This document shows, piece after piece, positions 12,401 to 47,500 of a stretch of 64,000 nucleotides of DNA (positions are counted from its first letter, which is position 1; every line of letters begins with the position of its first letter). Source of the stretch: Tetrahymena thermophila SB210 (lineage: Eukaryota; Ciliophora; Oligohymenophorea; Hymenostomatida; Tetrahymenidae); the NCBI RefSeq assembly GCF_000189635.1, contig NW_002476426.1, positions 1,178,001 through 1,242,000 of the forward strand. Direction: 5' to 3'. The notes beneath the pieces are model-generated. The model was given only the letters and a program-made list of their open reading frames with translations. It had not been told where the DNA came from and did no database searches. The position numbers and the translations under genes are program-made.

Positions 12401-13901
12401 AGTACACTCCTTTTTAGATAAATATTTTAAAATAGGTAATGTTTTTAATAAGTTTTTCCTAATAAATTTCTTAGTAATTATTCACAGAATTTTAATTTAT
12501 TTATATATCAAGTTTAATGACAGATAATTTTTATTTGATTACTATTTTCTTTTCGAATACAATCTATATTGTTTGGTATCATATTAATTTACTTTATCTT
12601 AAAGGAGTCTCAAACAATTCTCATTATATATGGGCTAAAAGCATATTTTTTATAAAAAATGCTAAATATAATAAATGTTTGAAAAGTGCACTAAATATTT
12701 AAGATTTAATAAAAAATTTGGACTTAATAAGTGTAAACAACTAAACAATTTCATAAAAATTATTTAAAAAAAAATCATATATTATTTTGATTTCATATTT
12801 TAGGAATTTAAATATTAATTAATATTTTCTTAATAAAAGGTTCTTCAAAATGTTTTTATTTGATTTATTTTTATTATTAATGTGTTTTTATTTTTTTTTA
12901 CATTTTCAGTAAATTAAGTACTTTAACCAATAAAATAAAAATAACCAATGGATATTTTAAAATTTTTATTGAATAAAATAATTATGATAAGATTTAATTA
13001 AAAAATAGTACTGTTCTATTAAAAAAAATTATATGTAAAAAATATTAAAAGTATGTTGAATATATTTTCTCATAGATTAAATAAAATATCAAAGTAAATA
13101 TCTTATTTATTTTATTATATAATTTAAAAACTCTTATTTTAACATAAAAAAAATACTTTTAATATTCTTATTACAATTAAATATTTATAAAATATAATTT
13201 AAGAGAATAATTGATGATTGATGAGATAATTACTTAAATTCTTAGATACAAATTAAAAATAAATTGAAGAATATGCAAAAAAATGAAATTAAACCTTTGA
13301 TAAGATAATTATTAATATAAATATCAAATTTAAATAAGAGAAAGAATAGAGGAATTACCAAGAAGTAAAAAGATAAATTTTTTGTTTTATAAATAAAATT
13401 AATTACTTTTCTTAAATTTATTTGCAATTTAAAATAAGAATTAATAATCATATTATTATTATTATTCATTTATATTTTTCTAATGAATATTTAGCATACA
13501 ATTAATTCAGAAAAAAAAATTTTGAAGAGCTTTTTTTTGCCGTTCAAAAATAATAAAAATATTTTAAATAATGAAGAAAATCAATTAGAATTTATAAATT
13601 GACTAAGTTTTGTATCTTTTAAAAAGGGGTTTTTGTCAGAGAGCTTCCAAGAAAGATATTTTTTAATGAATAATTATCATTTTGTTTATCAAAAAGAGAG
13701 ACAAACATTTAAACATTTATGAGGAAAAATTAATGCAAAATTTTTTTTTGGCATTTTAATTATTTGAATTTATTTTTTTTTATGAGATCTTCTTCTTCAT
13801 TTTATTTTTAATAGGAAATCTCAAATAAATTAAATAAATTTTAAAAAAAACAAGAAAATACATAAACAAAATTTTTAATAAAAAAGAAAAAAGCTCAGTA
13901 A
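9419..13901. other. 4.5 kb gene-poor region
   Basis: The longest stretch without a convincing gene. It contains only short ORFs of biased AT composition (11126-11356 minus; 12333-12702 plus), homopolymer tracts and AATAAT repeats (about 13449-13466). I saw no tRNA-like cloverleaf. It separates a minus-strand cluster from a plus-strand cluster, so both flanks should carry promoter regions. Confidence 0.55.
11126..11341 (-). CDS. Doubtful short ORF
   Basis: From ATG (MEKCNFLNKNFDAK) to TGA the minus strand encodes 71 aa: a short helical, Lys/Leu-rich stretch, then a hydrophobic stretch. The frame is also open upstream of the ATG for at least 100 nt, which could mean a longer exon, but there is no obvious donor or acceptor and no family resemblance. 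In DNA this AT-rich an open frame of this size is common by chance. Kept only because its composition is less degenerate than its neighbours. Confidence 0.2.
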   Translation of the reverse strand: MEKCNFLNKNFDAKIKELRLKIRNLNSLSKIKLFTMLIINQDKYFFNLYLVLKSDNLLASLEANYFSELIT

Positions 13902-14936
13902 ATGTCACAACAAAAAAGCAGAGGATACAATAAATCTGACCAACAACACAACTAATATAACTAACAAAATCAAGAGCCACCCAAATAGGTTAAGCCTACA
14001 TATTATGATCTTGAATTGAACAGCAAGAAAAATGCAAATAGCGTTTTTATTAAAGCTCAAGTTGTTAGCATTGAAGAATAAGAATCAAAATTCCCTACTA
14101 GCAATCAAGCTAAAACTTTGATTGTAAGTCTTGCATAAATTCTTTAAGAAAGAAACTAAACCCAAAAGGCTTAAATAAAAGTTCATCCTCCCAACCCAAT
14201 CTTTTACAAGGACCTAGAAGAAAAATAAAAGGAAAAGCACTACAACTTTTTCTTAAATGCTAAGAAGTAGCTTGATAATAATGAACTTGTTTTGATAGAA
14301 ATTTTGAATGGTAAGCTCAAAAGAGAAAAAGAAAACAAGTAAAGGGATAATAATGAAACTACAAAGAAATAAAAAATTATTTAACTTAAAGAATGGACTT
14401 AAGTTAAGAAATGCGAGAGATTCTTCGAGAATAACGATAAAAAGATGGGAGAAATCAATCAAATTAAGGATATTACTGCCAACAACAAATATGTTAATAT
14501 TCTTGCTGTAGTCACTGCTATTAAACCTTTAGGAGAAATTGCCAAAGGAAGCTAACTCTTATCACCAGAATTCAAAGCCGAAAAGCCTGAAGATTAACCC
14601 CTTAATCATCATATCACTTTACGTGATTAAACTGGAGAAATACATTGTATTCTTCCTAATATTGACAAGTTTAAGAGCTTTATATAATTGGGCAAATATC
14701 TCTTCTTCCAAAAGGCCTAAATTCAACATTCCAAAATTAAAGAAGGAGAAACCAACATCTTCTTAAACATCTACATTAATGAAAAGAAGCAAAAGCCCAA
14801 AGGTTTCATCTGGGATTGCTCTAGTTTACCTGAATTTGAAACTGCTATTCCAAGTATTAAGAGCTCTACTAATTTAATCAATGTAAGCAATAAAGTCTGG
14901 ATTGTTAAAGTTCCTCAAACTCAAACTGCTCAATGA
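13902..14936 (+). CDS. OB-fold nucleic-acid-binding protein, predicted
   Basis: Single exon, 344 aa, start MSQQKSRGYNKS, stop TGA. The first 35 residues are a Gln-rich tail. Residues about 197-280 have the pattern of an OB fold: YVNILAVVTAIKPLGEI, a loop, HHITLRDQTGEIHCIL (236-251; the LRDxTG turn is typical of RPA-like OB folds), then a KYLFFQKAQIQ strand. Residues 46-140 (SVFIKAQVVSIEE, KTLIVSLAQIL, VLIEILNGKL) may be a second, more divergent OB unit. Such proteins commonly bind single-stranded DNA or telomeric DNA; which one applies here is not shown. GC content is higher than in neighbouring genes and many Gln codons are CAA, suggesting strong expression. The gene is compact, intronless and preceded by a gene-poor region. 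Confidence 0.75.
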
Positions 14937-19196: not shown

Positions 19197-22100
19197 ATGG
19201 ATATATAAAAAACTTTTAAAAAAGTAAATACCCTAGATGCAAATAACAGCTAGGTAGGATAAGCTAACAGTAGCTTCCAAGGTTAAATACAAGAAAATTC
19301 CAATATGTTTAGATCCTAATAGCCTTTAAAAGATAAACTAGCAATATCAGGGTTTATAATGCCAAAATAAGATGAAGTCATTGATTAGAGGACTTCATTT
19401 AATGATCTTGGATTTGATTATAAAAAGGAAAAATAAGAAATCGAAGAAAATGAAGAGGATATGATACTAAAGAATGAAAAATATTAAAACAGAACAATAC
19501 AAGTTTAATATGGCTCATTAATTACAATTTCATTAGCAGAATATACAGATTGTTACATTTATTCAGACGGCTTCTCTTCGAAAACAATTAAATTAAAAGA
19601 GTTTAAATCAGCTTGCGGATAACGTGACCTCGACTTTTTTAACTCAGTTTTTATGATTTTACCCACCATGGAATATAAATACTAGTACCAACTTCTTCAT
19701 TAGTTCGTTTTTCCTGAGTCTAAAAAGAAGCATGGAAATGACAGTAATTTATTTGATATTGATTACATTTAAAATATTTAAACGTCTAAATTTGTTTTTG
19801 TGTAAATGAAACAATTAAAGAAAGTTAACCAATCAACCAATGAGCAAGCAAGCAAACAAACAAATATATAAATAATAGATTATTTAAATATAATTGTATT
19901 AAAGTATAAATAAAATTGAATAGCAAAATTAGATTAAAAATAAACTTAAAAATACTTGCTTTTTTTAAAATTTTATAGTTAAATTACTGCAATAGTGTAA
20001 ATAATTCAACTATTTCAATTATTCACAATGCTTCTTAACTGAAAATTTATATCGCAGACGAGTTATTTTTCTATTTATTTTATATACACATATGAAATAC
20101 TTTTGAAGAATTTATTAATTTAACTATCTATCTATTTTTTTAAAAAAAACTCAATTAGAACTTTAGGAACGTAAGCAAAAGATACAAACATTTCAATAGA
20201 ATATAGAGGGTGAATTTAGTGCTAATATCTTAAGTTTTAATAAACTCAAAGGCACTCCTGTCTCTTTTTCAACATCTTCTTTTCACTTAGTCCATAAAGC
20301 ATCACTGAAATATCTTTCAGTTGATGATACAAACTAAGATAACTACATGTAAATTTTTTTTATGTTTAATTTTATTTTTTTATTTCATTATTTATTAATT
20401 CAATTATAAAAGTAGAAAATAAGTGGTAAACGATATCACAAATTTCCTTTTTCATAGAATTAATACAAATCTTTTATATTTCAAACAGATTTAAATTTGT
20501 CGACTTTCCAGATCAAAATTGCTTATTTAAATTCATGCCTTGTCTCATGTTTTAAAATCAGCGTCAAACTACCTCAAATGCAGTATTTAACAAAGATAAT
20601 CTTTACATAGTAAGTTCTAAGCCCATTCATAATCGTAAACCCTACATATTTACTGATTATGCAGGACAAAAAGAAATCAATAAAATAAATGTACTCCAGG
20701 ATGAGTCTTCGTATGGCAAAATTTACGCAAATTTAGAAACTACTTGCAAATGGAGGTAAATATTTTTATAAAATTAGTTCTCACCTAAATTATTTATTTA
20801 CCTTAAAATATTAAATATTATTTATTTATTTATTTTTGAATTTTTACTTGACAAATCTTGTTAATTTAATAATTAAAATTTATAGAATTAACATATTTTA
20901 GCAGCCTGAGCTGGCCGATAAATCTTATTATATGAATGTTGGTGATTCTATTTGGCTAAATTTATCAGAATACCATGTAAATAAGTTATAAAGGTGTGTT
21001 TATATATTAATCAAATATTAAATAATTAGTACCAATTTTCTACTTCAAGGACTGTTAATATTTATCAAAGAATAAAAAACATAATTTATTCAAATAACGA
21101 TTAACAGTAATCTAACAATCTATAAAGCCATGCCTCTGAAGTAAACATAAATAAAAATAAGTCTATGCTAAATAATAGCTAAGCTATCCCAAACCAATAG
21201 AACTAATAAGCAAATTAACCTCAATCTACTCAAAATTAATAAATACCTTTTTCACCTGTGGCTTTAAATAACCTCAATATAAATAATACTGCTAATGATA
21301 AGTAATATTAAAAATCATCAAGTACTGTTGGAAAAATTCAAAAATAGTTTACTCAAGGACAAGAATTCCTCACTCCTAATTATTAAAAAATGAACACTCT
21401 GCAAGTCGAAGATCAAAATGCTGCATATTCTGTTAGCGGTTCAAGAGTTTCTAGGTAATAAAGTGGTTTAAGCAACTCCCATGAGTTTGAAGATGAGGAA
21501 GACTATGATGAAAATTTAGATAATAATATTGAAATACTTGAAAATGAGATTTTTCATAATGCTGAAGTGGCTTTAATTCATTAAAATCAGGACGATATGA
21601 ACAATTTCGATAAGAAAGAAGAGGGCTAGAAATTTAGATCTATTCCTTCCTAATACAAAAATGAAAAAGCTTAAGCAAATCAATTAGAAGAAAATGATTC
21701 GGATGATGAAGAAATCAAAACAGATCAAAAAAATTAGAAATCTTAAAATTTGAACACTTAAGGTCTATGGAAGATAGAAAGCGAGTACTTTGCAGTTGGT
21801 GGTTTCTTAGAATGGAAGTAAAATTACCGTCTAAGACATTTTGCTACAGGAAAGTATCTATCTCTTCAACAAAAGAATGGATAAGTAAAAATTATTTGAA
21901 TTAGTAATACTGAATAACATTTATATATTTAAATAATAACAGGTTGAGATGGTCCTTACTTCAAGACCAACTCCATAGACTTTGTTTAATTTTGTAGCTG
22001 TGCAAGCTATATCCTCTAACTTGAATACTTTTTCAAAACAAAAATATATTTCAAAAGACAGCTTTTATTGCTTAAAAAGCAAAACTATAGATGGATATAT

Positions 22101-25100
22101 TGGAATAAACTAGCTTAAACTCTTAGAAGAAAATAAATGCTAAATGAAGATAAATTAAACATGTAAGAAGAAATATTTACTTGAATTGATTTTTTGCCAT
22201 TTATTGTTTAAAAATTTTTTATTTATTAATTAAAAGAAAATCAATTCAATATTTTCAAAATGAAGAAAGCCAACTTTGATGATAATTGGGAAATTAATTT
22301 CTTATTGTGTTGTGTTCCTATTCTTACTGAATCTATAAAGTTTATTAACAGAATTGTATTATTTGAAATTTATTTTTTGCATATTTTGTTCTTACTTTTT
22401 TATTACTTTAACAGGGTAAGAAGTCTATCCTTGAGAGGTTTTCTAAAAATAGGTCAACCTATGAGTATATGTTTTCAAGAATAAAATAAGTTCTTAAAGA
22501 TATTGATGCATTTATCTGCAATACATTAACATCTAACATTTCAGTAACAGAAGAATATGGTAAACCTTCCATTGAACGTTCTAATGTAAAGCAACCATTC
22601 ATTAAAACTTATCAAATAATTTTTATTTTTTGTGAAAAAATAAGATTTTGAGAGAATAGCATGTAATTGGTATCTTATGCCTGTTACTGTTTAAGACATA
22701 TCCAAGAGAAGATTTACAAAAAGCTCTAAATATGGAAAATGTAACAGAAAGAATAAGATAAGAATAAGAGAAAGGGTTTAACAGAAACAATAGCAATAAT
22801 ACTGTCCATTAATATTAAGCTTCAGAATGTAAATAAATAAAATTAATAGATAGCTTTTTAAATATAAATTAATTTTTTAAACTAAAATTTTTAGATGGGA
22901 CAAACAAAAAACCTCTTTCAAAAATGATGGAAGACTTAATTTTAAAAAAATACAGCATTAGCATTCTTATCTATAAGATATTCCAAAACGTGTGCTTTGA
23001 CAATAAATAGAATTAAGAATATCTTTTTAAGTATATGAGCGAATTTTAGAAGCAAGTAGGCTCACAAGATATTGTTTGTGAAAGCTTAATCAAATTCTTT
23101 AGATTGAACAGGATGATTATTTAAAGATTTTCTCTTCCCATTTATCATAGAAAGACATAAAGGAAATTAAGTAGAATGGCTCCACCATAATTGTCTCCCT
23201 CACCAAGCGACGTTAAGTAGACAGGAAGCCATTTAAGTGCTGGCGAAGAAAAAACATCTCATTTAAATATGATAATTAATAAATTAGTTTCATACTAAGG
23301 ATAGAAAAAGAATGATATCCTTAAATTTCTTACATAATTTTGTAAATATATGGATAAAGCTATCTTTAATAATTAGGAAGTTATATTTAGTAATCTAATC
23401 ATTAAATACAAAAATAGTTCTCAGTCTCCTTTGTTTTAACTTTGTCTTTAAGGAGGGGATTGTTTGACTATATAACTTCTTGACAACGTATAGAAAATTT
23501 AGTTTTAAATTTTAATTAAAAAAATTACTTTTACCAAAAATTAGTTTGACGAGAAGTAGTTATAAATAGCAGATTTTTTGCAACTTGATGAAGATGAATA
23601 TGAATTTGATGATTAGGATGGAATTGCAGATGAAGAAGAAAAACCTGATTCAAAGAAAAAATTATCAGGATAAAATATTAAAGTAAATGCTGAAAAAGAA
23701 AATCCTAACAATAATTTTTTGATGAATTAGCTCAATCTATTCTCGAACCTTTGTTTAAATCGTAACTATAATTGCTGCAATTACTTCATGGAGATATTCC
23801 CTCTAAAGACTCTTATAGAGCAAGTTGAGAATGAGCTTATTAAAAATGAATAAGTAAAAGCTGCTTTCCTCAAGCTTATTCACTATATTTATTTGGGTAT
23901 GTTATAAAAAATTATTTTTTTTTTAATTTTATTTTTATTTCTTTTGAATAGATAAGGAGCCTAGGACTATTCAGATAAAACCAAATTATATCAGAATTAT
24001 TGACTAGGAAGCTGATTAGTTGTATATTGAAAAATTCTAATCAGAGAGAAAAAGAGTAGCTAGCTTAACATATAAAGAATCAACTCATAATAATCATTAG
24101 AATGGAAATATTGAAATGTAAAATTTGTAAATTATGTCACAAGCAAGCAAAGTAAATAAGCTAAACCAAAACAACTAAGAAGCAATAAGTTTGCTTTAAA
24201 AAGTTGAAGGCCAAGAATTACTCACAACTTTGAATGAATAAGATTAAAACGAAATCAACTGTCTAAAAAAACTAAAGAGTGATTTATTAAAGTTTTTGCT
24301 TTAAAAGGAAGAGCTTCTGAAGAAGGTTACTCATGACACACAAGATAAAATTTTTAATGCAATGACTTATGAAGCTATTAAAATGTTAAAGATGATGCTT
24401 AAGTTTGGAATTTTCAATTAAGAATTGGAAGCCCCAGTTGAAGATTTTAAAAAAAAGACAATGAAAACATTTATCCCAACAAAGCTTGTTGAAGCATTAA
24501 AAAAGAAGGAAGAGCCAAAACCAAAAACTGAAATAGAAAAATTAATAGGAATTTGTGTGAAGATTTTAGAATACGATCAATTTTACTAGGAAACTTTGTA
24601 AGATCTCAATATCGTTAGAAGAACAGATGAAGTGAAGAAGCCTACAGATATGATTAATTTAAAGGTATTCCAAGGAGGTATTAAAATAACTTGTTTTTTA
24701 GTTTGGATAGTTTAATTAATAAAATGAATAAAATATAGGTATGAACCTTATTGGATAGGGATTAACAGGTATTAAGGACATATTTGATCTGGCTACAGGA
24801 GGAGGTAATAAGGAAGGTAAAAAAAATGAATAAAAGAAGAAAGCTGTTGCTTTAGATGAAATTAGCGCTGATATTGTTACTGATCCACTTTTTAAGAAAA
24901 TATAAGGCCTTAAAAAAGTTTTAAACAAATATACCAATAAAACTTACCTTTCTAAGGAAGAGCTTAAAAAAGATTAAGAAGAAGATTACGAAACTGGAAT
25001 TAAAATATAAATTTGTTAAATTTTCTAAGAAATGCTAAACATCTAATAAGATTTCTATTTAGACAATACTATCAGCTTCTTTAAAAAGAATTTGGTTCAA

Positions 25101-28100
25101 ATTCATAATAAAATTAATTAGCCAAAATCTCAGCAAAAGATAAATATATCTTCACTTCTTCCCGAAGATCCTTTTGAGGTTGGTCAACCATATGAAAATT
25201 AAGAAGAAGTAAATTTTTAAATACAAATCTTCATTTTAACTCCTTATTTTTTTTCAAAAGTTTGTCAATTATACAGAGAAGATACCCCCTAAATCATTTG
25301 ATGCAATTCTCGAAAGATCTTTTATGGAAACTTTATTGATTAGCTTTTACTTTGCAGATAATCCTAATTTGAGCAATGAAATTATGAACCTCTTAAAAAG
25401 AGTTTGCAACTAAAAAGGAGAATTGATTAATAACATAGCTAAAATAGAGCTATTACTTACTCACGAAAGTAAAAAAACTTACCATACACTTAGCTTGTAA
25501 GTGAGTAAACTTAAGAATCTTATCTAAAATAGTTAAATTTGGCTCTAAATCTCATAAAATAAAGAGAGTGAAATCAAAATGACACAATGTTTAGAATGCT
25601 TACAATAAATCATAAATTAATTGACTTTTTCTGATATTCAAAACTCAGAAGAGCAGTAAATAATTTAAATTATTAATAATGTTTTAATTTCTATTTTTTT
25701 TTATTAAAAAAAGATAACAGTAAATGAAGATAGGATAAAGTATATTCAAACATGTTACAGGAGATGATACCATTTTACAATTAATAGAAAGAGCTACTAT
25801 TCTATTTCATAGTCAGAAAGAAATATTCTTTAATAACCAATTAGAAAAAAATGAAAAAATAAGCCAAATCATTCAGATGATTAACTTTTGCTATTAGATA
25901 TTAGTATTATTCTGTAGAAATAATAGCGCTCACTAAGAGTAAAAACACATATTAATATTATTTTTTATAATCAAGCTAATCAAATATATTTTTTATGAAA
26001 ATAGGCTTTTCTTTGAAAAGATATTTAAAATTCTTATTTAATTTTAAGACTTTAACTTTGGACAGCTACCTTTAATTCAAGAAATCATTTAAGGGAATGT
26101 GAATATTTGCACGTAGTTAAGGGCAGAGGATTTAAAATTCATAGCAGAATTTATTGTTAACCATGGAAAATACACATAGTTTTTAAGTATATTTGATATT
26201 ATCATAGAAACAGTCACTGAAAAAGATGATAAATAAAGCAAAATTATGCAATCTATGGTTATAAAAATTCTATTTGATGATAGAATTGCTTAAAAGATCA
26301 ACGTAATCTCAATAATTATATTATAATAAAATTTAATCAAATATAATTAAATTTAATCAGCCTTTTGTTGAAAGCTACTCAGATCAAGATGAAAACACCT
26401 ATTAGTTCTTTGCAGAATTACCTGATATAAAAGGCTACAAGGAAATTCTAATTAGAGTAAAAAAAAATTTGTTCAAAAAACAAAATTTAATAAAATTTTT
26501 AATTTTCTTAACCAATAGTTGATATCTAAAGGATTAGATAAAGATAGTGATATTTCTTTGATTTCGAAAATGAATAAAGTTATTTCAGCTGATAATTTAT
26601 TACAAGAATTGTATCAATCATAAACAGAAAGCATCCAATATGAAAGATCGCAAGAAAAATAGCATTTAATGATACCTTCTTATAAAAAACAAAAAAAAAT
26701 ATTAAAAATACTGCTTTACTATTTGACAAAGAGTCAAAAAGATTATATCGAAAACTAATTCCGTGGAAGTAAAGTTTTATTATAACTAATCTAATTAATC
26801 ACGGATAGACTAAAAGAAGAAAGACCTTATACTATTAAGTTTTAAATAATTCTTATAGATAGGATTATTCCTTTAATTAATATTTATTCAGAGCTCTTTT
26901 TAAGAGAATAAAACATATAGCTAACAGAATCGTAAGACTTCTTAGCTCTTTCTAAAAGTTCATTCTAGTAGTTTACTGTTGAATATATCCGTTAAGCTGA
27001 TTAGTAACTTTCCTTCTTTCTTACTTTTTTTAATTTAAATTATAAATATTTTTTTAATTAAAAGATTCCACAAAGAATATGAACCGATTTTCATTAAAGA
27101 TGTTAGATATAGAAATCTTTTTAGACTTAGTAATTTCTATTCAGTTCCCATACCAAAAACTTTGAATTTTGCTAGGGAATAAGGAGATGGATTTATATAA
27201 AATAAGGATTCTGAAATGGGCCAATTTGTAGCGAGATTAGAAAATAGCCGTTTAGATAGTTACTCTTCTCTAAATAGTAAGAGATAAAACTCCTTTAATA
27301 TGAATAATACTAAAAGAGGAGGAAGTCTTACTAGCAGATCAAAATAAGTAGATTAAGATGATATGAGCTTCGAAGGAGATAAGCTTAAGAAAAAATAAAG
27401 TAACTTTAACACTAATAATAACAACAGTAGCAGTGCTATCAAATAAAAATTAAATGGAGATAGAGGAAGTCCTTTGCTTTAATTGTAAAATTCACCTTCA
27501 TAACATCAAAATGGAAAAAATTTGGATATAGAAATGATTAATTTTAATCCCATTCAGAAAAATAATATTGCTGAAGAAGATATGCAGGGTATTGATAAAA
27601 TTAACTCAAATAGGTTAAGCAATAATAAGCTGCTTACTGTTAATCTTAACAAACACTTGAGTTCTATGAAACCAGCAGATTAAGTTTTATTCAATCTGCA
27701 AATTAAAGATTAGTGGGATAATCTAAAAGAACTGCTTCAAATTAATGAAGAAATATAAGAAAAATTAGAAGATGAAAAGAGCCTGCTTTCTAACAACATC
27801 TTAAATGTCCAAAATATTTTCATGGCAGATTTGAAAGATCACTAAAAAGACATACTCTTAAACTCTGAAGATTTGATAACAAAATGCCTAAGTAAAACTT
27901 TTACAAATTTATCTTATTTATTTTAAAATTATTTTATCGTAAATAAACAATATTTAATTTTTTCACTAATAATTTAATTTTATTATGTGAAGATTATATT
28001 GAATTTTGGGAGAAGAATCACTCAGATAAAAATGACATCATTTTTACAATAAAATCACTCTCAAATATTCTTAAACTGGAGGATGAAGATGATGAAGAGT

Positions 28101-31100
28101 AACAAAAAGTATAATTTGAAAGGCAAATTATGCTGGATAAACTAAATGCTACAAAGATTTGCCTTCTTTTAATTTCTAGTGATTAAATGACAGTTGATAA
28201 TGATTTACTTTATTATATTATAAAATTCCTTATTCTAATTCTTGATGGTGGTAATTAAACTGTTTAGAGGACAGTCTATGAATTCTTTTACTCCAGTTTA
28301 TATTCTGAATTTTCTGAAAAGTTCTTTTATAAGATTTATAATATTTTAAATGATTAAGTTATGTAAGAAACTACAGGCTAAAAATACATTGTTGGCAAAA
28401 AATCAGATAAAATCATATTGAGAATATTAAGACTATTACAATTATTTTGTGAAGGACACAACAATAATTTACAAAATTTAATGAGGGATTAAAAAACAAA
28501 CAAAAAATCATACAACTTTATTCTTTAAATCATAAAATTATTATCAACTTACAAAATACACAATGAAAACTATGAAACCGTTATTCAGTGCTTCGATACA
28601 TTAACTGAATTTATTCAAGGTAAAATTTCTTTTTATAAAGCTATTATATGAAGAATGTATTTTTAAATATATTAATATAGGACCTTGCCATGGAAACTAA
28701 TAATGCATAATTAGTAGTAAATTTTTAGATTATGCAGTCTTGATTCTGAGTGGAGACAAAAAAATTTTGGATGCTTAAGAATTAAGATAATAAAAGTTTT
28801 TAGAGAAAAGCGAAAAACAAAATAATGCATCATAGCTGATGAAAAAATCAGGTTAAGTTGATTCTAAGGGTGACAGATAAAGTAAAAACTTGACTCTTAA
28901 AGAAAAATCTGTCAAGAAAGTAGATGTTGAAAATAATGTTTCTGGATTTTTAAATACAGATAGAGATGGTAATTTATTTTAATTTTTAATTCATTCAAAG
29001 TTGTTAAGAAAATTTTTACTTATTAAGAACTACCATAAGACGATTTCCCTCTCCACTTAGGAAAATTAGCACGTTTAAAAAATAAATGCTTAATAACTAT
29101 AGTTAGTTTGCTTGAATGTAATATCAATTCAAAAGAGTTTGTAACTAAGATTGTGAGATCTATCCCTTTGAATATACTTACAAATAACTTGTCAAGAATC
29201 TACCAACTATATCAAAAATACGAAAAAGATTATGTTTAGTCAATCTTTAATAGAGCAGATGAAGATATTGATCCTAAAAAACCAGAAGAATACTCTGAGC
29301 TTATCATAGAAAATGGTTTTAACTTATATATTTTAGTGAATCTTTTCTTAGAAAACAAAAAAGGCCTTGATGAAGAAGATGATGAAATTAAAGAATTCTT
29401 CGATGAATTTGCTAAAGAGGAGGAAGAAGGCGGTCTAAAAGGATTATTAAAAAATAATTTTTTGATGGATCTTACGAAGGTTGGATAAGCATTTATCGGA
29501 TTAGGTGTTGGAGCTTTGAAGGACATGTATAAAAAAGCTACAACACTTGGTGATAAAAGAATGATAGAAGAGCAATAAAAATAACTTATTGAAATAGAAA
29601 ATAAAGAAACAAAAAAGAATGCAATCAAGTTTTTCAAAGAGTAAGTTGGAAGAATTGAAATAGTCCGTGATTAATAACTTTAATTTATTTACTTCCCTAT
29701 TTTGCCATTCTGCAAAATGTTGCCAGAAGAAATTAATGAGGATTTCCGTGAGCATGTGCCACGTACATCTGTCAAGACCTAATTATCTGCATTGATGGAT
29801 AAATCTGATTTTATGATAAAGATCATGAAACATGAAGAAAGATTGCGCTTACTCTTTTAAAATAATAAAGCTCTTGGTTTTTTAGCATCTCATGTACGTT
29901 TATGGGAAAAAATAGCCTTCTTCTTTGCTAGTGCAATTAACATCATTATTTTATTCAGTTATAGTTAATTCTTTGCAACTGATGAATAAAAAGCAGATTC
30001 AAATCAACTTAAAACTGAGAGATTGTTTGATCCTAGACTTTTCTACATTAAGAGTTAAACAAGTAAAACTATTTTTTATTCTTTCATTTTTAGAATTTTA
30101 ATTAATTAATAACCTTTATTAGATACTGAAAACTATATAATTTCGCTTGGTACAGTTACTATCATATTTTATTCTATTGTCGTGGCTGTATTCTTAATGA
30201 AAAAAGCACCTATTTTGATAGGTGATATTTGGGAATAATACTATTTATTGTATACTACAAAGGAGAAAAAAGACAAAAAGAAGAAAGATAAGGGTGTAAT
30301 GCCACTTAAATTAGTTGGCGCACTATCTTCTCATTTTTTTGATCTAATTAATAAAATTATGCTCTTTGTTCTTAATGCCTTAAAGAGTGTCATTATTATG
30401 CTTTATGACTATGAAATCGTTTATTACACTTTTAACATGGCAGTTGTCATTTTTGGTCTTACAATTCACCCGTTTTTATTTGCTGGTATTTTATTAATTA
30501 ATAAAAAGTTACCCCTTGATTAATATATTTTATTTTATAAGGTTGTTTAACTGACTTGTTGAGAACAAAAGTATTAAAAAATGTAGTTGCTGCAGTTTGG
30601 ATACCAAAAGGAGAAATCTTTTTGCTACTGATTTTATTCATTATCTTCTAATATTATTTTTCATTAATCGCTTACATTTATTTCAATGATCACTTCAAAG
30701 ATAACAGGTGTGAAACACTGTGGAGATGTTTTATTACTGTTTTTGATTGGACATTTAAGTAAAATGGTGGTGTTGGAACGAGTATGTGGGAACCAAATAG
30801 TTTATTGAATTATGCAGCTGCTGCAAGTCCACCTACTTTAACAAATCTTAGTTCTACTAGTCCTAATGGTACACTCGAACAATACACAGGAGTTTATTTC
30901 TCAAGATTCGTTTATGATACTATCACAAATATAGTCTTATTATTCATTCTAATTAATATCTTGAAAGGTACTGACTGAAACAAATAATTTATTTATTTAT
31001 TTGTTTTGTTTATGCAAATTAATATAAAAAAATATTTTTTATTCATTCAGGTATTATCGTTGATAAATTTAAATCTCTAAAAGATGACATGTCTAGTAGA

Positions 31101-31658
31101 GAAGAAGATGAGTAATTCTACTGCTTTGTTTGTGGTATTCATAGAGAAATTTTAGATAAAGCTTAGGAGAAAAAAGGATATATGTATCATATTAAGGTAT
31201 AATTGTATTTTATCACAATTTTATAATTCAACAAAATATAATAAATTAAAAAAGTACGAACATTACATGTGGAACTACATATATTATAGAGCATACTTAG
31301 AATCCAAAGATAATACAGAATACAATGGAGATGAATCATATGTGATCAATAAAATTTAGGAGAGTGATTTAGGTTGGTTCCCTGTAAATAAAACTTGGTC
31401 TGTGCAAAGAAAAGAAGATGAGGAACTTAGACAGATTCACAGTTAGGTCATTGAAAATGTAATTGATATACATTTTTTATTCTAAGAATTTCATTTTTTA
31501 ATTTTTTGTGTTAAAATTTAATTAATCATAAAAATACTAAATAGATCAAGGATATTAATGATAAGCTTAAAGATACCTAAATGAAATTTGATTCGAAGAT
31601 AGAATAGGTTATAACTTTATAACCTGATGATGACGAGTAGTATGAATATATAGATTGA
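19197..31658 (+). CDS. IP3-receptor-type intracellular Ca2+ release channel
   Basis: Multi-exon gene encoding roughly 3,400-3,600 residues (my estimate), starting MDIQKTFKKVN and ending DDDEQYEYID before TGA. The N-terminus (about 19.5-22.1 kb) has the ligand-suppressor and MIR signatures: SSFHLVHKASLKYLSVDD, the CKWRINIFQQ and NVGDSIWLNL strands, and FLEWKQNYRLRHFATGKYLS. A long helical RIH/ARM-like middle follows. Six-TM-type hydrophobic segments lie at about 29.9-30.95 kb, with HPFLFAGCLTDLLRTKVLKN before the pore helix. The selectivity filter (30766-30780) reads GGVGT. After the last TM come FKSLKDDMSSREEDEQ and the linker with Cys-x2-Cys (YCFVC) and downstream His residues, then WFPVNKTWS, as in IP3 receptors. 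Clear introns include 19824-20166 (343 nt) and one near 30,485-30,545 (phase 1). The family sits in ER or calcium-store membranes. Whether this one binds IP3 cannot be read by eye. Confidence 0.93.
30766..30780 (+). other. Channel selectivity filter, GGVGT variant
   Basis: Five codons encoding Gly-Gly-Val-Gly-Thr, preceded by FDWTFKQN and followed by SMWEPN. In animal IP3 receptors the filter is GGVGD and in ryanodine receptors GGIGD. Here the terminal acidic residue is replaced by Thr (ACG), and about 40 luminal residues rich in Ala/Ser/Thr/Pro precede the last TM helix. Confidence 0.85.
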
Positions 31659-31925
31659 ACTTTAATCCTACATTTAATATATTAATTATCTTTGAAAATA
31701 TAAATATTTTGATGTGTGTATATAATAATTAAAATTAAATACAATTTAAATTGACTTCAAAAATAAATTTATCTAATTTTTTATAATTTATTTAAATAAA
31801 TACTATTACAACTTAAAAAAATTATAGGTCAAACTTTAAATATTTTTTTGTCATATTAAATCCAGCCAGATTAAAGTATTTTTGTTGTAAAACATTTTTA
31901 TCATTTACTTATTTATAAATTTTTT

Positions 31926-33089
31926 ATGTGGGATTAAATCTAAAGCAAATTTCAATATAAAGAAGCAGAATTTATATTCTAATAAATTGTATATTTCAAA
32001 AATAATGAGATAAATTAATAACCCAAATATTTAGTAAATTTCAAGTTTGCAACAGTAGAATTAAAGCTAAGCAAACTAATCCATCTCTTAAAAAATTACT
32101 GATTATTTAAATGATAACAATAGACTTATCAGTTAAGCGTACATATCTTAGTGCCATGAGAATTATGAATAAGCATTAGAGTATTTCATGATTTATAATT
32201 AAGTTATTTCATAAAATCTAAATTAGTGTTTATTTTAAATGCAAAAATGGATGATATAATTTTTAAAATATTATTTTAAAATAGGTGTTTAGATAAATTA
32301 GTGTTTAGAATGATTGGAATGATGGAAAATGCTGATAAAAATCATAAAATGCGATAAACTATTTATGAAAACCGCGAAATATTATCTGAAATACAAATTA
32401 AGTAATACTAAGAGCTTTATTAAGCAAATATCAACAAAAATATAGATTAAAATTATTATCTGGACTACTACTTGAGTAATCTACCTGTTAAAAAATGTAA
32501 AATATTTTCTTTGGCTCAATAAACCCTTTTTTTTTAATAACTAGTTTGTGCTTTTTTTTCAAAATTGCTAAAATTCTTTTCAATATTTCATTAAATATAA
32601 AGAAATAGAAAAAAAATAAGAGAAAAATAAAGTCCAAAAAGTGTATTGGACAGAATAAGAAAAAGCTCAATTCAAAGAAGCACTTTAAAAATTTGGCAAA
32701 AAAGGTATTTTTATTACAATTTGAATTAATTAAATTAAAAAACTGTAAATCAAAATTAATCTAAAACAGATTTAAAAAAGATCTCAGAATATATTGGAAC
32801 AAAAAAACCAATACAAGTAAGATCACATATGTAAAAATATTTTAAAAGATTAGAAAAGGAAGGAAAACTTCAACAATAGTCAGATATAAATAATTCAAAT
32901 GAAAAAAACAGAAGTAATGAGGAAGTCTAGCATATTGTAGGAGAAAACATTTCGAGTAATTTATAAAAGATAAAAAAAAATCAAAAAAACTAATAATAAA
33001 ATAATTTATTATTTGATGTTAATTAAGAATAAAAAATCTAAGTTAATCAAGAATAAAACTTAAAAAATAATTTAAAAAATAATGATTGA
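31926..33089 (+). CDS. Myb/SANT protein, SHAQKYF class
   Basis: About 285 aa in five exons, starting MWDQIQSKFQYKEAE. Introns by eye: 31989-32058, 32226-32284, 32497-32602, 32705-32769; each restores the open frame. The N-terminal 130 residues are helical (DYLNDNNRLISQAYISQ, ENYEQALEYF), perhaps a TPR-like hairpin. The Myb repeat reads YWTEQEKAQFKEALQKFGKK, then DLKKISEYIGTKKPIQVRSH, then MQKYFKRL: Trp at the first position, Phe/Tyr/Ile substitutions at the later ones, and the SHAQKYF-class helix as SHMQKYF. Its invariant Gln is codon TAA (32832-32834). The tail is Gln/Asn-rich and ends before TGA. Proteins of this class bind DNA as single-repeat regulators; targets unknown. It starts 267 nt after the channel gene, in the same direction. 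Confidence 0.85.
32832..32834 (+). other. TAA codon at the invariant Gln of SHxQKYF
   Basis: The Myb recognition helix is encoded TCA CAT ATG TAA AAA TAT TTT. The Gln of this family's signature is highly conserved, so TAA read as Gln here is direct internal evidence for the ciliate code. Confidence 0.9.
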
Positions 33090-34388: not shown

Positions 34389-35138
34389 TCATGATATAAT
34401 TTTTTTCTTTCCTTTCTTCAGCAATATTTAGAAAAAATTTTATAGAGAGTATTATAAATTCTAGATTACCAAACTATCTACTATTCTAATAATTTTCTTC
34501 TAAACTATCTCTTAATTCAAAATTAATTTATTTTTAAATATCAAAATAATCATTAAAATATCAAAAAATTATGAAAAAATATTTCAAATTAATAAATTCT
34601 CACTTTCTAATTAAAATTTAATAAAAAAAAATTTTTCAGAAATTTTTACACCTTAATAAAAACTTACCTTTTTTAAAGAGAAACTTATAAATTAATACTG
34701 ACAGTAGTTATAATTTTCTTTATAATATTATTTAAATAAATATTAAATATATTGAATTTTTGTAAATATTTGTATTTTAAATAATTTAATTCACCTAAAA
34801 TATCCAAAAATAAAAATAAGAATAAATATATGAAGATACTTTAGTTTTAGATTTTAATTTTCTTCTTTTTATCTATCTTAAATACGTTATAAATAGATTA
34901 ATTATCTATTACAAAATATATATGAATTTATGAAATGAAAACTAAAATTAAATTCCTTACTAACAATTTTTCATCGATTCCTTCAGAAAATATTCTCTGG
35001 AAATTTAAAGGAACATGTTTAATTTTTTTAAAAATTTACGAATTCAATTTTTTAATAATAAAATTAACCAAAAAATTCATCTAAAAAGGATATAATTCAA
35101 CCAAAACTAAAAGCATATTTATAAAAAGAAAAACTAGA

Positions 35139-35468
35139 ATGGGACAAGAAAATAGCAAATCTAATAATACCTTAGATCCTAATGGATTCTAGAAACCCAT
35201 GGAGAAAAATATTAAAGATTAAATATTATCGCTACCTTAATACACCCTCGAATAAGTAGCATAGCATAATTAGCCTACAGATGCCTGGATTATTATTAAT
35301 GGTTTAGTTTTTGACATAACCTAATATCAGCATGCTCATCCAGGTGGTTCAAAGATTATATTTGCAAAAGCTGGTTAAGACGGGTCTGATGATTTTGAAG
35401 CCTTAAAGCATTCATAAAGAGCAAAAGAAAAACTTAAAACTCTTTGTGTAGGAAGATTAGCTAAATGA
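35139..35468 (+). CDS. Cytochrome b5-like heme protein
   Basis: Single exon, 109 aa, start MGQENSKSNNTLD, stop TGA. The core from about residue 33 is a cytochrome b5 domain: YTLEQVAQHNQPTDAWIIIN, GLVFDITQYQHAHPGG, FAKAGQDGSDDFEALKHS, VGRL. Heme-ligand histidines are His67 (in HPGG) and His91 (in LKHS). Family role: one-electron carrier to membrane desaturases, hydroxylases or P450s. It lacks the C-terminal transmembrane anchor of microsomal cytochrome b5; instead Gly2 with Ser6 (MGxxxS) fits an N-myristoylation signal, a plausible alternative way to reach membranes (inference). Several Gln are TAA/TAG. The start is only about 60 nt from a possible minus-strand start. Confidence 0.92.
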
Positions 35469-36378: not shown

Positions 36379-39300
36379 TCAAACTCTACCATAGACCTTT
36401 TCAATATCATTATCATACAGCTCTTAAGTAGACCATTTGTCAGTAAAAGATGTTAAACACTTTGCATCATACTAAGTGACTTGCTTTATGTCGGCTTCCT
36501 TTGTGTAACACCCAACACCAAAACTATGGGTTGCTCCTCTTTACCATTAAACTTAAACAAAAACATAGTAAGTTCCAGCTTTAAATCTTTAACGATCTTC
36601 ATTGTCTACATACTTAGGAGAAAATAAATCTCTTTTTTTACCTTTGATTTTATGTATTATGTTTCCATTAGAATCTGCAACACAAATTTTTGTTTCAGAG
36701 TAATGGCCTTAGTCTTTAGGATTTACAAACTAATAATCTTCATCAAAGCATCTAATAGAGAGCTGACTAACAAAAAAGAAGCAATATGCGTCTTTTTTCA
36801 AGTCTACTCTAAAGTATTTGGCTTCGTTGCATTTTGAGCGACATCTATTAATTAATTAATTATTTTATTTAAATAATATATAAATGAATTTATTTTATTT
36901 TAGACTGTTGGATATTCAAAAAAGTCTATTTCAAAGCATTTTTGGTTTACAAAAATTTAATTTAAAACACTAATAAAATTTATTATTTTTATTGAATAAA
37001 CTCTTTTGATATTTTAAAAATACACGCTAACCAATAAGCTTTACAAACTAAAAAAAAAATAGTTTTGTTTAATTGCTTACTTAACACCAAAATAGTTGTA
37101 ATCATCATAGTAGTAGCAAATATCTACAGAGTCGTAGTATTGCCTAAAAGTATCGAATTTCATGAAAAATGTACCATCATCTTCATTTAAATATTCCATT
37201 CTTCTTTTGTCTTCTTCAGTAACATTTTGCCATTAATAATCCTTGTCAGCATATGTTTTATTCCATTCTATTTTAAAATAAATAAAATATATAATTCGTT
37301 AATAAAAATCAAGTAGAATTTTTTAAAAATTTTCTAATCATATTTGTTTGTTTGAGGGGTTTTAAAATTTTTGATTCATTAAAAACTATGCAGCAAATAA
37401 ATATTAATGTCTATAGCTTTATTAGAATAGAAAATTAATAACTGAATATATATGTGTATGACTGATTGTATCAAATTTAAAATTAAATTGTTACCAAAAT
37501 TTCCCCAAGGGTTTCTCATTTTTACTAATTTTTCTTTATAGCCACTTTTTAAGGTAATTTCGTATGCACCAATTAAAGAATACGCATGTCCACTAATTAA
37601 GCCATGCTTTTTTAATGGATCATTATCATCGCCTGTATCTTCTCCCAAAGTACCTGCACAGATGATTCTATTTAAATCTTAAGACTTAGCCTTTAATATT
37701 TTTTCCCAAAGAACTTTTGGATCACAATTTCTAGGATCAAAGTTTCTCACTGGAGCACCTGTTAAATCGTGCATACTTTCTTTTACTAATTAGCCATTAA
37801 GCTAATGATAATTTTTATGCAATTTAGCCCAAGCTTTTTCTATCAAGAAAGCCCATAATTCCTTTTCTTTTGATTATTAGAAATAAGGCTTATTCCTGGA
37901 GTCAACAGGAATAAGATCGTCTACTATTACTTCAACTGGAACTCCTTTCCAAACTAAGTTTAATCCATAAAGGCCGTACTTGCTTTTAGATTCATTAATA
38001 AAAATTCTCTAAATACGAGAAGGTGTTTCAGCTATTGCAGCTATTGTTGATAAAAATGCGCAGTCTCCTAAATATCCTTGTTAAATATCATTAGGTTCAA
38101 TAATCTTGAAATATAATTCAAACTCCTCTTTGCCCCAAATAACTCTTGGACGAACCCAAGTTTTAATGCTGCGATATTCATTTAAGTTTTAAGGTGGAGC
38201 AATACTTTTTTCTGAAGCAGGGAATTCATAATCATTGAATTCTGAATTTGTTTACATGCAAATTTTCAATGCAGATTGATATTTTTAATCAAGTCGAGGT
38301 CTATTTACTTTACTATGCTAAGATTAAAAGGGGGAAATATAGCTCTTTAAAAGACTAGAATTCAACATATTATTGTTATTAACGTTTGTAGTAACAGGAG
38401 TTTGGTTGTAATTGTAGTTGTTATTAAAATTGCTGAAATTGCTGGCTTTGTTGGGATTTGGAAGATTAGATACATTAGAAGGATTAGAGTAAGGAGATGA
38501 AACATTGTAAGGAAGATTATCAACTGGTTTTTTTATAGGCTCTTTTATGTTTAAAGGAGAAATATCATTTTGGATATGTGGTGAGATAGGGTTTGAGGAA
38601 TATCCAGCTCCTGTATATTAATTATAAGGAGTAGGAACACTAGAAGGTGATGAATAATCTTTCTAAATTGGTGTATTAGGGCCTGTGCTAGAACCTGAAT
38701 TTCTTTTAATATCTGCAATTATTCTATTCACATCTTGGTTATAAGAAGGCTACTAAACCAATGGAATATTAGGTGTATTAAGAGGTGATGTTGTATCATA
38801 TTTAGCGAAATTACTAGGTTGTAGGTAGCTATCGGAAGGTCTGCTAATATTAGAAGGTGACTTTGCATTTAGATAGCTATCTTTTGTATAATTAGGTAGT
38901 GCAGTATTTGAATGGGACCCTAAACCAATATTAGATAATTTAGTAGCTGGATACTGAAGATTAGTTCCTAAATTTGACAATTTATTAGGGTTATAGACTA
39001 AAGAGTCTTTGGTTTAGGTTGGAACAGGAGCTGGGTTATATTTATATTTTGCAGACAAATCATCTGCAAATTTTGAAGTTCCATGAGATGTAGGTTAATA
39101 CTTATTGCTTGATTCAGCTCTAACTTTACCATCTTTACCTAAATTAATATTACCTACTTAAAAGTATGGGCTACTATAATCAGCTTTAGGAGTGTTAAAT
39201 TCGTAGGCCCTTTATTTTTATGTGATAAATTGATTAATATTCCATTTATTTTTACAATTTTATATTTTTAATTATAAATGATTGAATGAGGAGTTAATAT

Positions 39301-39594
39301 TTATGTTTAACGAATTATATAAATGAAATTTCTTTCTTTTTTTACTTTTACTGAGTTTAGGGGATGCTGATTGGTTTACTAACAGGAGCTTTATCTGCTA
39401 AATTTATTGCTGGATTGTTTCCAAATCCTATTTGTTCTATATTCAATGGCTGTATTCCAAAACCTTTAAGGAGATCATTGACTTCAAAAAAATTGCTGCT
39501 CTAAAAATTGAAAAAATGTTTAATATTTAAACACTTTTTAAGCGTGAATTAAATATTGAAAGAAATCTAATATATAAGTAAAGTTTTTTACCAT
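36379..39594 (-). CDS. Calpain-type cysteine protease
   Basis: About 850 aa. The first exon seems to be only the ATG (39592-39594), spliced to an exon starting SSNFFEVNDLLKGFGIQPLN. A long Ser/Pro/Asn/Tyr-rich segment follows (repe­ats such as SPSNISRPS, NPISPHIQN), then the CysPc domain: PNDIQQGYLGDCAFLSTIAA holds the oxyanion Gln and catalytic Cys, SGHAYSLIGAYE the His, and KMRNPWGNFG the Asn, so the triad is complete. The C-terminal beta-sandwich (KCNEAKYFRVDLKKDAYCFF ... ATHSFGVGCYTKE) resembles calpain domain III. No EF-hands, so it is a non-classical calpain. Other introns lie near 39.22-39.34, 37.27-37.49 and 36.85-37.08 kb. Likely a Ca2+-responsive cytosolic protease; the substrate is unknown. 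End TGA follows KVYGRV. Confidence 0.92.
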
Positions 39595-44551: not shown

Positions 44552-47500
44552 TCAATTAAATTTTAAATTGTCAATATTATTGTTTGATTTAGTTGTTGAG
44601 CCTTTATTTTTATCAAATAATTTAACAGGAGAAAAGCTAGTGAGAGTTTAACTTTTTTAGGATTTGCTTTTGATGAAATTAATTTCATATTCAATTTAAT
44701 CTTATTCTTGCTTATCTTATTCTCTATTATGAAAAAAGTTGGTATGTCTAAAATCTAAATTAGCACTTTACTGCTTTTTAAGGTTTATGTTGATATTTTG
44801 CTATTAATTTTTTTACTACTATTAATCAATTAAATGTTCAACTTAACCTATTTTGTTTTCTATTTAGAGTTTATTATTACTTTGATAATTATCTTTTTCT
44901 TCATTATCTAAATCAATTATTGATTATAAATCTTAGTTAGATTCTAATCCCCGTTGAGTTAACTTGAACTTACTTGATTTACTTTGCTTATCGTGAACTT
45001 ATTCCACTCTAGGAGACTCAATCATTCCTATTTTAAGTATACTATCCTACAAATTTAAATTATAATTTAAATTATTGCCCAACTTGTTAGAAGAATCATG
45101 ATTTTAAAATAATTTATTATGAGAAAAGGGTTCGTTTAATGAATAAATATGAGAATCTTATCTTATTCTTGTAGAAGCTTCAGAGCTATCTATTTCATTA
45201 ATGTTATTCAAGTTCTACTTAAAGTCAAAAACTGGCTTGAAGGGTTAAATAAATGTTTCAGGAGAATTTTAATTAACTGTAGCATATGTATCTTAATAAA
45301 CATGCTCATGTCCTCTCATAATTTTAGCCAGGTGAGCAGACTTAGGTTCGTTATTGTAATAATTTTAATTTGCTGGATTAACAAAAGTACTTGCCTTTTC
45401 TTTTTTTCTTTAAACATCATTTTCTGATTTCTTATTTTAATCTTAATTTTAAGATTTATTAAAGTACATTTCTAGGGTTTAAATTGTGTCTTTTGTTAGT
45501 TTTACTGTTGCATGTTTTTTATTAATGCGAACATCTCTTTAGTGCTGAGGTGATTCTGCTTGTTTTAATGATTGAAGACTAAGAGTATGGAAATATATTG
45601 GTTTTTTTTCTACTTTTAAGTTTATTATATCTTTCTTGACCAAATCAGCTGAAAATACATCTCCATCATAAGTTTTATCTTTCTTGCAATTCTCTTATTC
45701 ATTATGTTTTAGTTCATCTTACTGATTATCTTTGGGTAATTTACTTTTTTCTTAATCAATGTCAGATTTATTCAATTTTTTGCTATCGATAGTAGCTACA
45801 GAACCTAGTGACTAGTCAAGAGGATAATACTTTATCGTTTTAAGCTTCCATTCTTTAAGGGCTGCCTCAGTGATTGGTGTTCTGCAATAAGGGCAATTTT
45901 AATTTTTATACAACCAAGGATCGAAACATGCAATATGAAAAATATGATCGCATATTGTTAATCTACACTCATCTTCGTATTCAAAATTGCATAAGCAAAT
46001 ACCACATTCCCCATTTCCTAAAATATTTTCACATCTCTCCTACACTTTTCTACACATTTCTTCTTATTCTTATCTTCTTTTTTCCTCTTCTTCTGGGCTC
46101 CTTGGTTGAGATGGTACAGCCTGCTCTTACTAACATTCTTTAAGAATTTCATCTCTTCTCTTTTTCACAGCTTTAAAAATATGCTTGAAAGTATACTTCG
46201 GAATATGAGATTCAACAATTTCGGGATTTAATTTCTCAAGATTCCTACGATTTAAAAGAGCTCTTTAGCTTTGCTCATCCTAATATCTTTTGACAAGAGC
46301 CTTGACTAAGCAAAGGATAGCAATAAAGAACAAAATAGCGAACCCCATCATAAGATAGAAAACCCAGGAAGGCAAATCAAATAAATTCATGTACTAGAGT
46401 TGATACTTTTAATAAGATTGATCATCATAAAAAGCAAATTCAACATTAAAATCTTGATATCCGTTATTAAAAAGGTTAATATAAAAGACGATTTCATATG
46501 TCTAGTTATTAATATTTTAACTTGCTATTGAGCTTTACTAAACAACAGATGAAATATATTCTTTGGTTAAAGATTCATCTAAAGTACTACTTGAATTTCT
46601 TACCTAAGAATTATCAAATCCAATTATTGGATAAGAAGCATCTTCTTAATTAGATTTAAATCTAATCTATTGGGAATAAAGCAAGCTAAAATTTTACTAA
46701 AGTAATGTTTATTATTAAATCATTACAATATGATAATTAGCGTTTAATTTAGTAGGGACATTAACCTATACTCTTATGAATTTCCATCTCTTACTAGAAA
46801 ATGTAAACTGGTACTAGTTATTTACTAAAATTAAAATAATTAATATTAATCTTGAAAATTTTTATTATTTTTTACAAAAAATCAACTTTTTTTCAAGTGA
46901 AATTAATTTTAAAAATCTTTCGTTAATTTTTTTGTTTTGTTATTTTAGAAAAAGTTTTTGGATAAAAAAAATATTTTTAATATTTTGTATAAAGAAAAAC
47001 TGTTTTATTTTTAAATAGTAATTCATAAAATATGTATAAATTAATTTAAAATTTACTTTGGTATATTTAATAATTTAGCTGACAGTACTATCCGATATAA
47101 TAATTAGGACAAGTTTGGCACACATTTTATAGGTTAAAAGATGGCTCGCTCAAAGAATTACAAGTAGCTCCATTGCAAACTTCTGGGCAAAGACCGTCTT
47201 TTTTAATGAAATTAGCATTAAATTATGTTTCAATAGGAACAAGCCTTGAAAAGTTAATTTGTTTTAATTCATCAATAAAGATAGGATTTATATAAACTTG
47301 TTTAATTGCTGGATCTAATTCTACTAATACCGTTTGATCAAGTTAAAGCAAACAATTTTAAAAGTCTATTGAACTAAGCTAATCTATTGAATAAATAGAT
47401 TGCTAATCTATTATTGATACTTTATCTTTAGTAACTAAAAAGCATAAAAAGGTGTCTTTCGATTAATTAAGTTGTATGAAATTGTTTGTAAATGTTAATT

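Follow-up and report, generated by a model that had tools for sequence, protein, structure and literature searches.

A predicted Ca2+-release channel (CRC) gene of the inositol trisphosphate receptor (IP3R) and ryanodine receptor (RyR) superfamily was characterised in a 64,000-nucleotide stretch of Tetrahymena thermophila SB210 DNA (contig NW_002476426.1, positions 1,178,001 to 1,242,000 of the forward strand; hereafter the window, numbered from its first letter). The gene is best explained as a CRC whose selectivity filter, like those of its entire clade of paralogues, lacks the acidic residue of the metazoan filter, and which is likely to be a weakly selective channel for stored Ca2+; the probability of this reading was put at about 0.8. 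It was built on the sequence, the predicted gene structure, homology, clade membership, loop length and the distribution of filter letters. Judged from these, the gene is a real ciliate IP3R-type Ca2+-release channel and a further member of a known family.

The window lies in a 101-Mb genome assembly (445 contigs). TAA and TAG were read as Gln, as in the ciliate code, a reading required in the pore frame and in the adjoining frames. The gene was modelled by a Viterbi procedure using codons and splice sites, whose splice profile had been learned from 24 introns of the family. Its N-terminal part is unreliable, with several tiny exons around 19996-20425. The following features were assigned.

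19197..31658, forward strand: predicted IP3R/CRC-type channel gene, 34 exons, 33 introns, 3384 residues (Viterbi model, Pfam domains)
21690..22035, forward strand: MIR domain, model residues 576-671, split by the predicted intron 21885-21942 (Pfam PF02815, E = 1.2e-9)
28400..28749, forward strand: RIH_assoc domain, model residues 2470-2565, split by the predicted intron 28620-28680 (Pfam PF08454, genome search)
30486..30541, forward strand: predicted intron 5′ of the pore exon (Viterbi only)
30542..30967, forward strand: pore exon with transmembrane helix S5, pore helix, filter, loop and helix S6 (one predicted exon; AlphaFold 2 model; fold matches)
30745..30747, forward strand: pore-helix Asp codon, F-D-W-T-F-K (sequence, family alignment)
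30766..30780, forward strand: filter codons GGVGT, NGGVGT in context, with Thr at the metazoan Asp position (alignment, codon reading)
30781..30903, forward strand: filter-S6 loop of 41 residues, SMWEPNSLLNYAAAASPPTLTNLSSTSPNGTLEQYTGVYFS (codon reading)
30968..31050, forward strand: predicted intron 3′ of the pore exon (homology-guided joining and Viterbi)
31051..31196, forward strand: end of S6 and C-terminal linker with CFVCG motif, CFICG in IP3Rs (Protein Data Bank (PDB) alignment, joining, Viterbi)
31255..31458, forward strand: remainder of the C-terminal linker domain, with EHYMWNYIYY, TEYNGDESYV and WFP (PDB alignment, joining, Viterbi)

A second intron 3′ of the pore exon was called at 31197-31254 by both homology-guided joining and the Viterbi model. 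Since this intron and that at 30968-31050 belong to the Viterbi training set, the agreement of the two calls is not fully independent.

Family membership was assigned from domain content and from the pore. MIR scored 38.7 bits (cut-off 25.6) and RIH_assoc 115.1 bits (cut-off 28.5; E = 1.5e-33); Ion_trans just passed its cut-off (25.5 against 25 bits) and RIH (RYDR_ITPR) fell just under (21.6 against 22.3 bits). The S5-P-S6 pore and the CxxC linker lie at the C-terminal end, as placed by PDB alignment, the AlphaFold 2 model and Ion_trans. The metazoan-type filter GGG(V/I)GD was not matched and NGGVGT stands in its place. By sequence the closest PDB relatives are IP3Rs, which the spliced 223-residue segment matched at E = 9.2e-27, so a chance open reading frame is not involved; the GGVGT filter in an IP3R-type channel, as originally predicted, is borne out by this match and by the codons. 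Identity as an RyR was rejected, because neither SPRY nor RyR-repeat domains were among the Pfam results for the model (E up to 0.1), the protein has 3384 rather than about 5000 residues, and the PDB score is weaker. No Ins145_P3_rec domain was found in the model (Pfam, E up to 0.1; N-terminal model shaky), and none of the six genome matches to this family lies within the gene. In a weak alignment, two of 11 IP3-contact positions are identical (T266 and R511) and three more are Arg-to-Lys changes; the contact positions include R568 and K569. With so few contact residues apparently kept, binding of and gating by IP3 are doubtful.

An AlphaFold 2 model of 30544-30966 (predicted local distance difference test 80.2, predicted template-modelling score 0.65) gave fold matches to both IP3R and RyR. 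The loop, predicted as long and rich in Ala, Ser, Thr and Pro, indeed has 20 of its 41 residues from this set and carries two N-glycosylation sequons (NLS at 30844, NGT at 30865); it is followed directly by RFVYD, the conserved start of S6. The span first given for the feature, 30700-30990, runs 23 bases past the end of the predicted exon (30967).

At least 27 genes of the IP3R/CRC family, including the present one, were found in the genome. The pore segment retrieved 22 of them, the Ins145 family added C154 (genes are named by contig), and RIH_assoc added C184, C99, C39 and a second gene on C350 (C350b); the searches score the best candidates only, which makes 27 a lower bound. Pores could be read in 26 genes, C242 being excluded for want of joinable exons. 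A predicted splice join interrupts the filter letters of C259, and one falls immediately 5′ of the filter in C144, C4, C177 and C184, so that these readings depend on the join chosen. An acid occupies the metazoan filter-Asp position in six of the 26 pores and is missing from 20, two of these (C158 and C375) having a gap there and being scored as acid-less. The letters found were Gly (10), Glu (4), Asp, Thr, Ser and Asn (2 each), His and Gln (1 each) and gap (2). Asp is kept only in C350 (GGGIAD) and C350b (GGGIGD, the metazoan filter in full); Thr is shared by the present gene and C364.

In a tree from which the columns of pore helix, filter and loop had been left out, the present gene belongs to a clade of 14 genes (support 96/88), none of which has a filter acid; Thr, Gly, Ser or His takes its place. 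The sister genes are C259 (VGALGH) and C134 (SGSIGG), with support of 99/96. Loops of at least 30 residues are confined to the present gene (41) and these two (31 and 32), and correspond to one change on the tree; those of the others have 6-25 residues and that of ITPR2 has 14. Among 22 genes tabulated, loop sequons also occur in C144, C4, C336, C322 and C364 and in neither sister. An acid-less filter is thus the usual state in the family of this genome, and Thr itself is uncommon. The oddity implied by the original prediction does not hold: relatives share both the missing acid and the long loop, as do, by the available text of a Paramecium survey (PMC3213138), most Paramecium CRCs for the acid and group III CRCs for pore-TMD6 (sixth transmembrane domain) insertions, and the gene is therefore no surprise. 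As for GGVGT being the ordinary ciliate filter, this is right for the lack of an acid and wrong for the letter, Gly being commonest (10/26) and Thr uncommon (2/26).

Several relatives were observed in passing. Two IP3R-type genes on contig C350 (L032 and L045), with GGGIGD and GGGIAD filters, lie about 12 kb apart and pair on the tree (95/91). The pore of L038 (contig C154) matched animal IP3Rs in PDB at E = 2.6e-48, far closer than the present one (two pore segments compared); it has an AAGIGE filter and a short loop. As aligned, the pore loop of the related L029 and L023 (C158 and C375) is strongly shortened, to 5-6 residues, and a GGxG filter cannot be recognised in either.

The exon structure rests on prediction from genomic DNA, and the loop could be a retained intron or the filter a product of mis-splicing. 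This is extremely improbable. The 33 predicted introns have a mean GC (guanine plus cytosine) content of 14.6% (maximum 25.0%; shortest 48 nt), against 36.6% for the loop DNA, and MWEPNSL at the loop start resembles LYEPQSL of the sister C259; on composition and this likeness a retained intron was rejected. No frame-preserving GT-AG pair of at least 32 nt at GC of 25% or less occurs in the pore exon, and G-(V/I/L/M/F/A)-G-(D/E) is absent from all forward frames of 29000-32000. These searches thus show no trace of a splice restoring GGVGD, and such a splice was rejected. The pore might instead conduct little or nothing, with the protein in the role of a scaffold or contact-site component, or active only in mixed tetramers. 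In the available text of PMC6700175 and PMC10406432, replacement of the last filter Asp by Ala (D2550A) leaves IP3R1 non-conducting, and D2550A IP3R1, devoid of Ca2+ release, is described as retaining structural or regulatory roles. Even so, a dead pore is improbable here: the S5 and S6 helices can be recognised, as can much of the Gly core, although all 14 clade genes lack the acid, and Paramecium CRC-II-1, with the core motif only, counts as a genuine InsP3 receptor in the text available to us (PMC3213138).

A further possibility is a relocation of charge, in which the Asp in the clade's pore helix has replaced the lost filter Asp in function and ions permeate by another design. Twelve of the 14 genes in the clade carry this Asp (in F-D-x-T-F-K and similar); outside the clade the residue is Asn, Leu, Lys or Gly (12 genes), and in ITPR2 it is Asn. 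Among the 26 pores, the helix Asp alone occurs in 12, a filter acid alone in six, both in none and neither in eight (Fisher p = 0.017). This mutual exclusion speaks for relocation, yet shared descent suffices to produce it: the tree requires no more than three changes of the helix trait and four of the acid trait, and independent pairs number two on well-supported branches and three on all, far too few for a test. Neither charge is present in clade members C302 and C322 or in six genes outside the clade. With two independent comparisons on well-supported branches, relocation is a hypothesis and the counts are not support for it; we regard it as doubtful, and charge compensation as an established fact was rejected. 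That the whole clade conducts Ca2+ without the filter acid, indispensable in mammalian IP3R1, and with the needed charge shifted to the helix Asp is a still bolder proposal and an unlikely one; if true, it would be a second, independent permeation solution inside one channel superfamily.

Under the preferred reading of a weakly selective CRC, the channel would form a tetramer with a filter lined by the Gly-Gly-Val-Gly backbone. Loss of the filter acid probably dates from the ancestor of the 14-gene clade or earlier, and the gene product would most likely be a weakly selective cation channel releasing Ca2+ from a store. Charge at the mouth may be reduced or supplied elsewhere, the helix Asp of the clade being the first candidate; compensation by other acids, as originally suggested, would be compatible with this Asp. 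Altered permeation, also part of the original prediction, is plausible, and not idle given the effect of D2550A, which implies that the ciliate channels must conduct in another way or poorly. The pre-S6 loop would face the lumen and, to go by its sequons, may be N-glycosylated. Among ciliates such a gene is unremarkable, and the value lies in the family: within one genome the key filter position of this pore is occupied by Asp, Glu, Gly, Thr, Ser, Asn, Gln or His, and such natural variants are a ready set for testing how permeation in IP3Rs and RyRs depends on the filter acid.

Elsewhere in the window, the following features were assigned.

34926-35468, forward strand: cytochrome b5-like domain (PF00173, E = 5.3e-22)
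37376-39442, reverse strand: calpain-family cysteine protease (PF00648, E = 1.3e-56)
44552-47149, reverse strand: RING-finger protein (PF13639, E = 2.5e-11)

The stretch before the RING finger looks hydrophobic by eye. By eye, a protein at 13575-14936 (forward strand) resembles an OB-fold nucleic-acid-binding protein; it matched nothing in Pfam (E = 0.001) or in the PDB (E = 1). The window gave no matches in Rfam at gathering thresholds or with ARAGORN.

Compared with known systems, the channel shares MIR, RIH_assoc, S5-P-S6 and the CFxCG C-terminal linker with metazoan ITPR1-3, and differs in having NGGVGT for GGGVGD and a loop of 41 rather than 14 residues (ITPR2). RyRs belong to the same pore superfamily but matched less well (best PDB E = 5.2e-18). 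According to excerpts of the respective papers, glycine carbonyls build the IP3R/RyR filter (PMC7399828), mutations of filter glycines give non-functional pores in mammalian IP3Rs (PMC7939385), and GGGXGD is conserved in channels of other parasites (PMC3194816). Some oomycete ITPR homologues are described, in the available part of PMC7399828, with acid-less GGGLG(G/S) filters; by this description they lack the filter acid as here, in a different lineage. Among the matches listed for GGVGT in a literature search, no title concerns ion channels. The nearest parallel is Paramecium, for which the accessible portion of PMC3213138 describes 34 CRCs of the IP3R/RyR type with six transmembrane helices in groups I-VI. 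The full GGG(V/I)GD is given for three named CRCs of group IV, with GG(V/I)G or variants in others and practically no filter similarity in group VI; an insertion between pore and TMD6 is reported for CRC-III-2, -3 and -4, and permeation of most of these channels was called an open question in 2011. Compared by published description, Paramecium thus has an expanded family, mostly acid-less filters and pore-S6 insertions, as here; Thr at the last filter position, found in the present gene, is not mentioned in that portion of the text.
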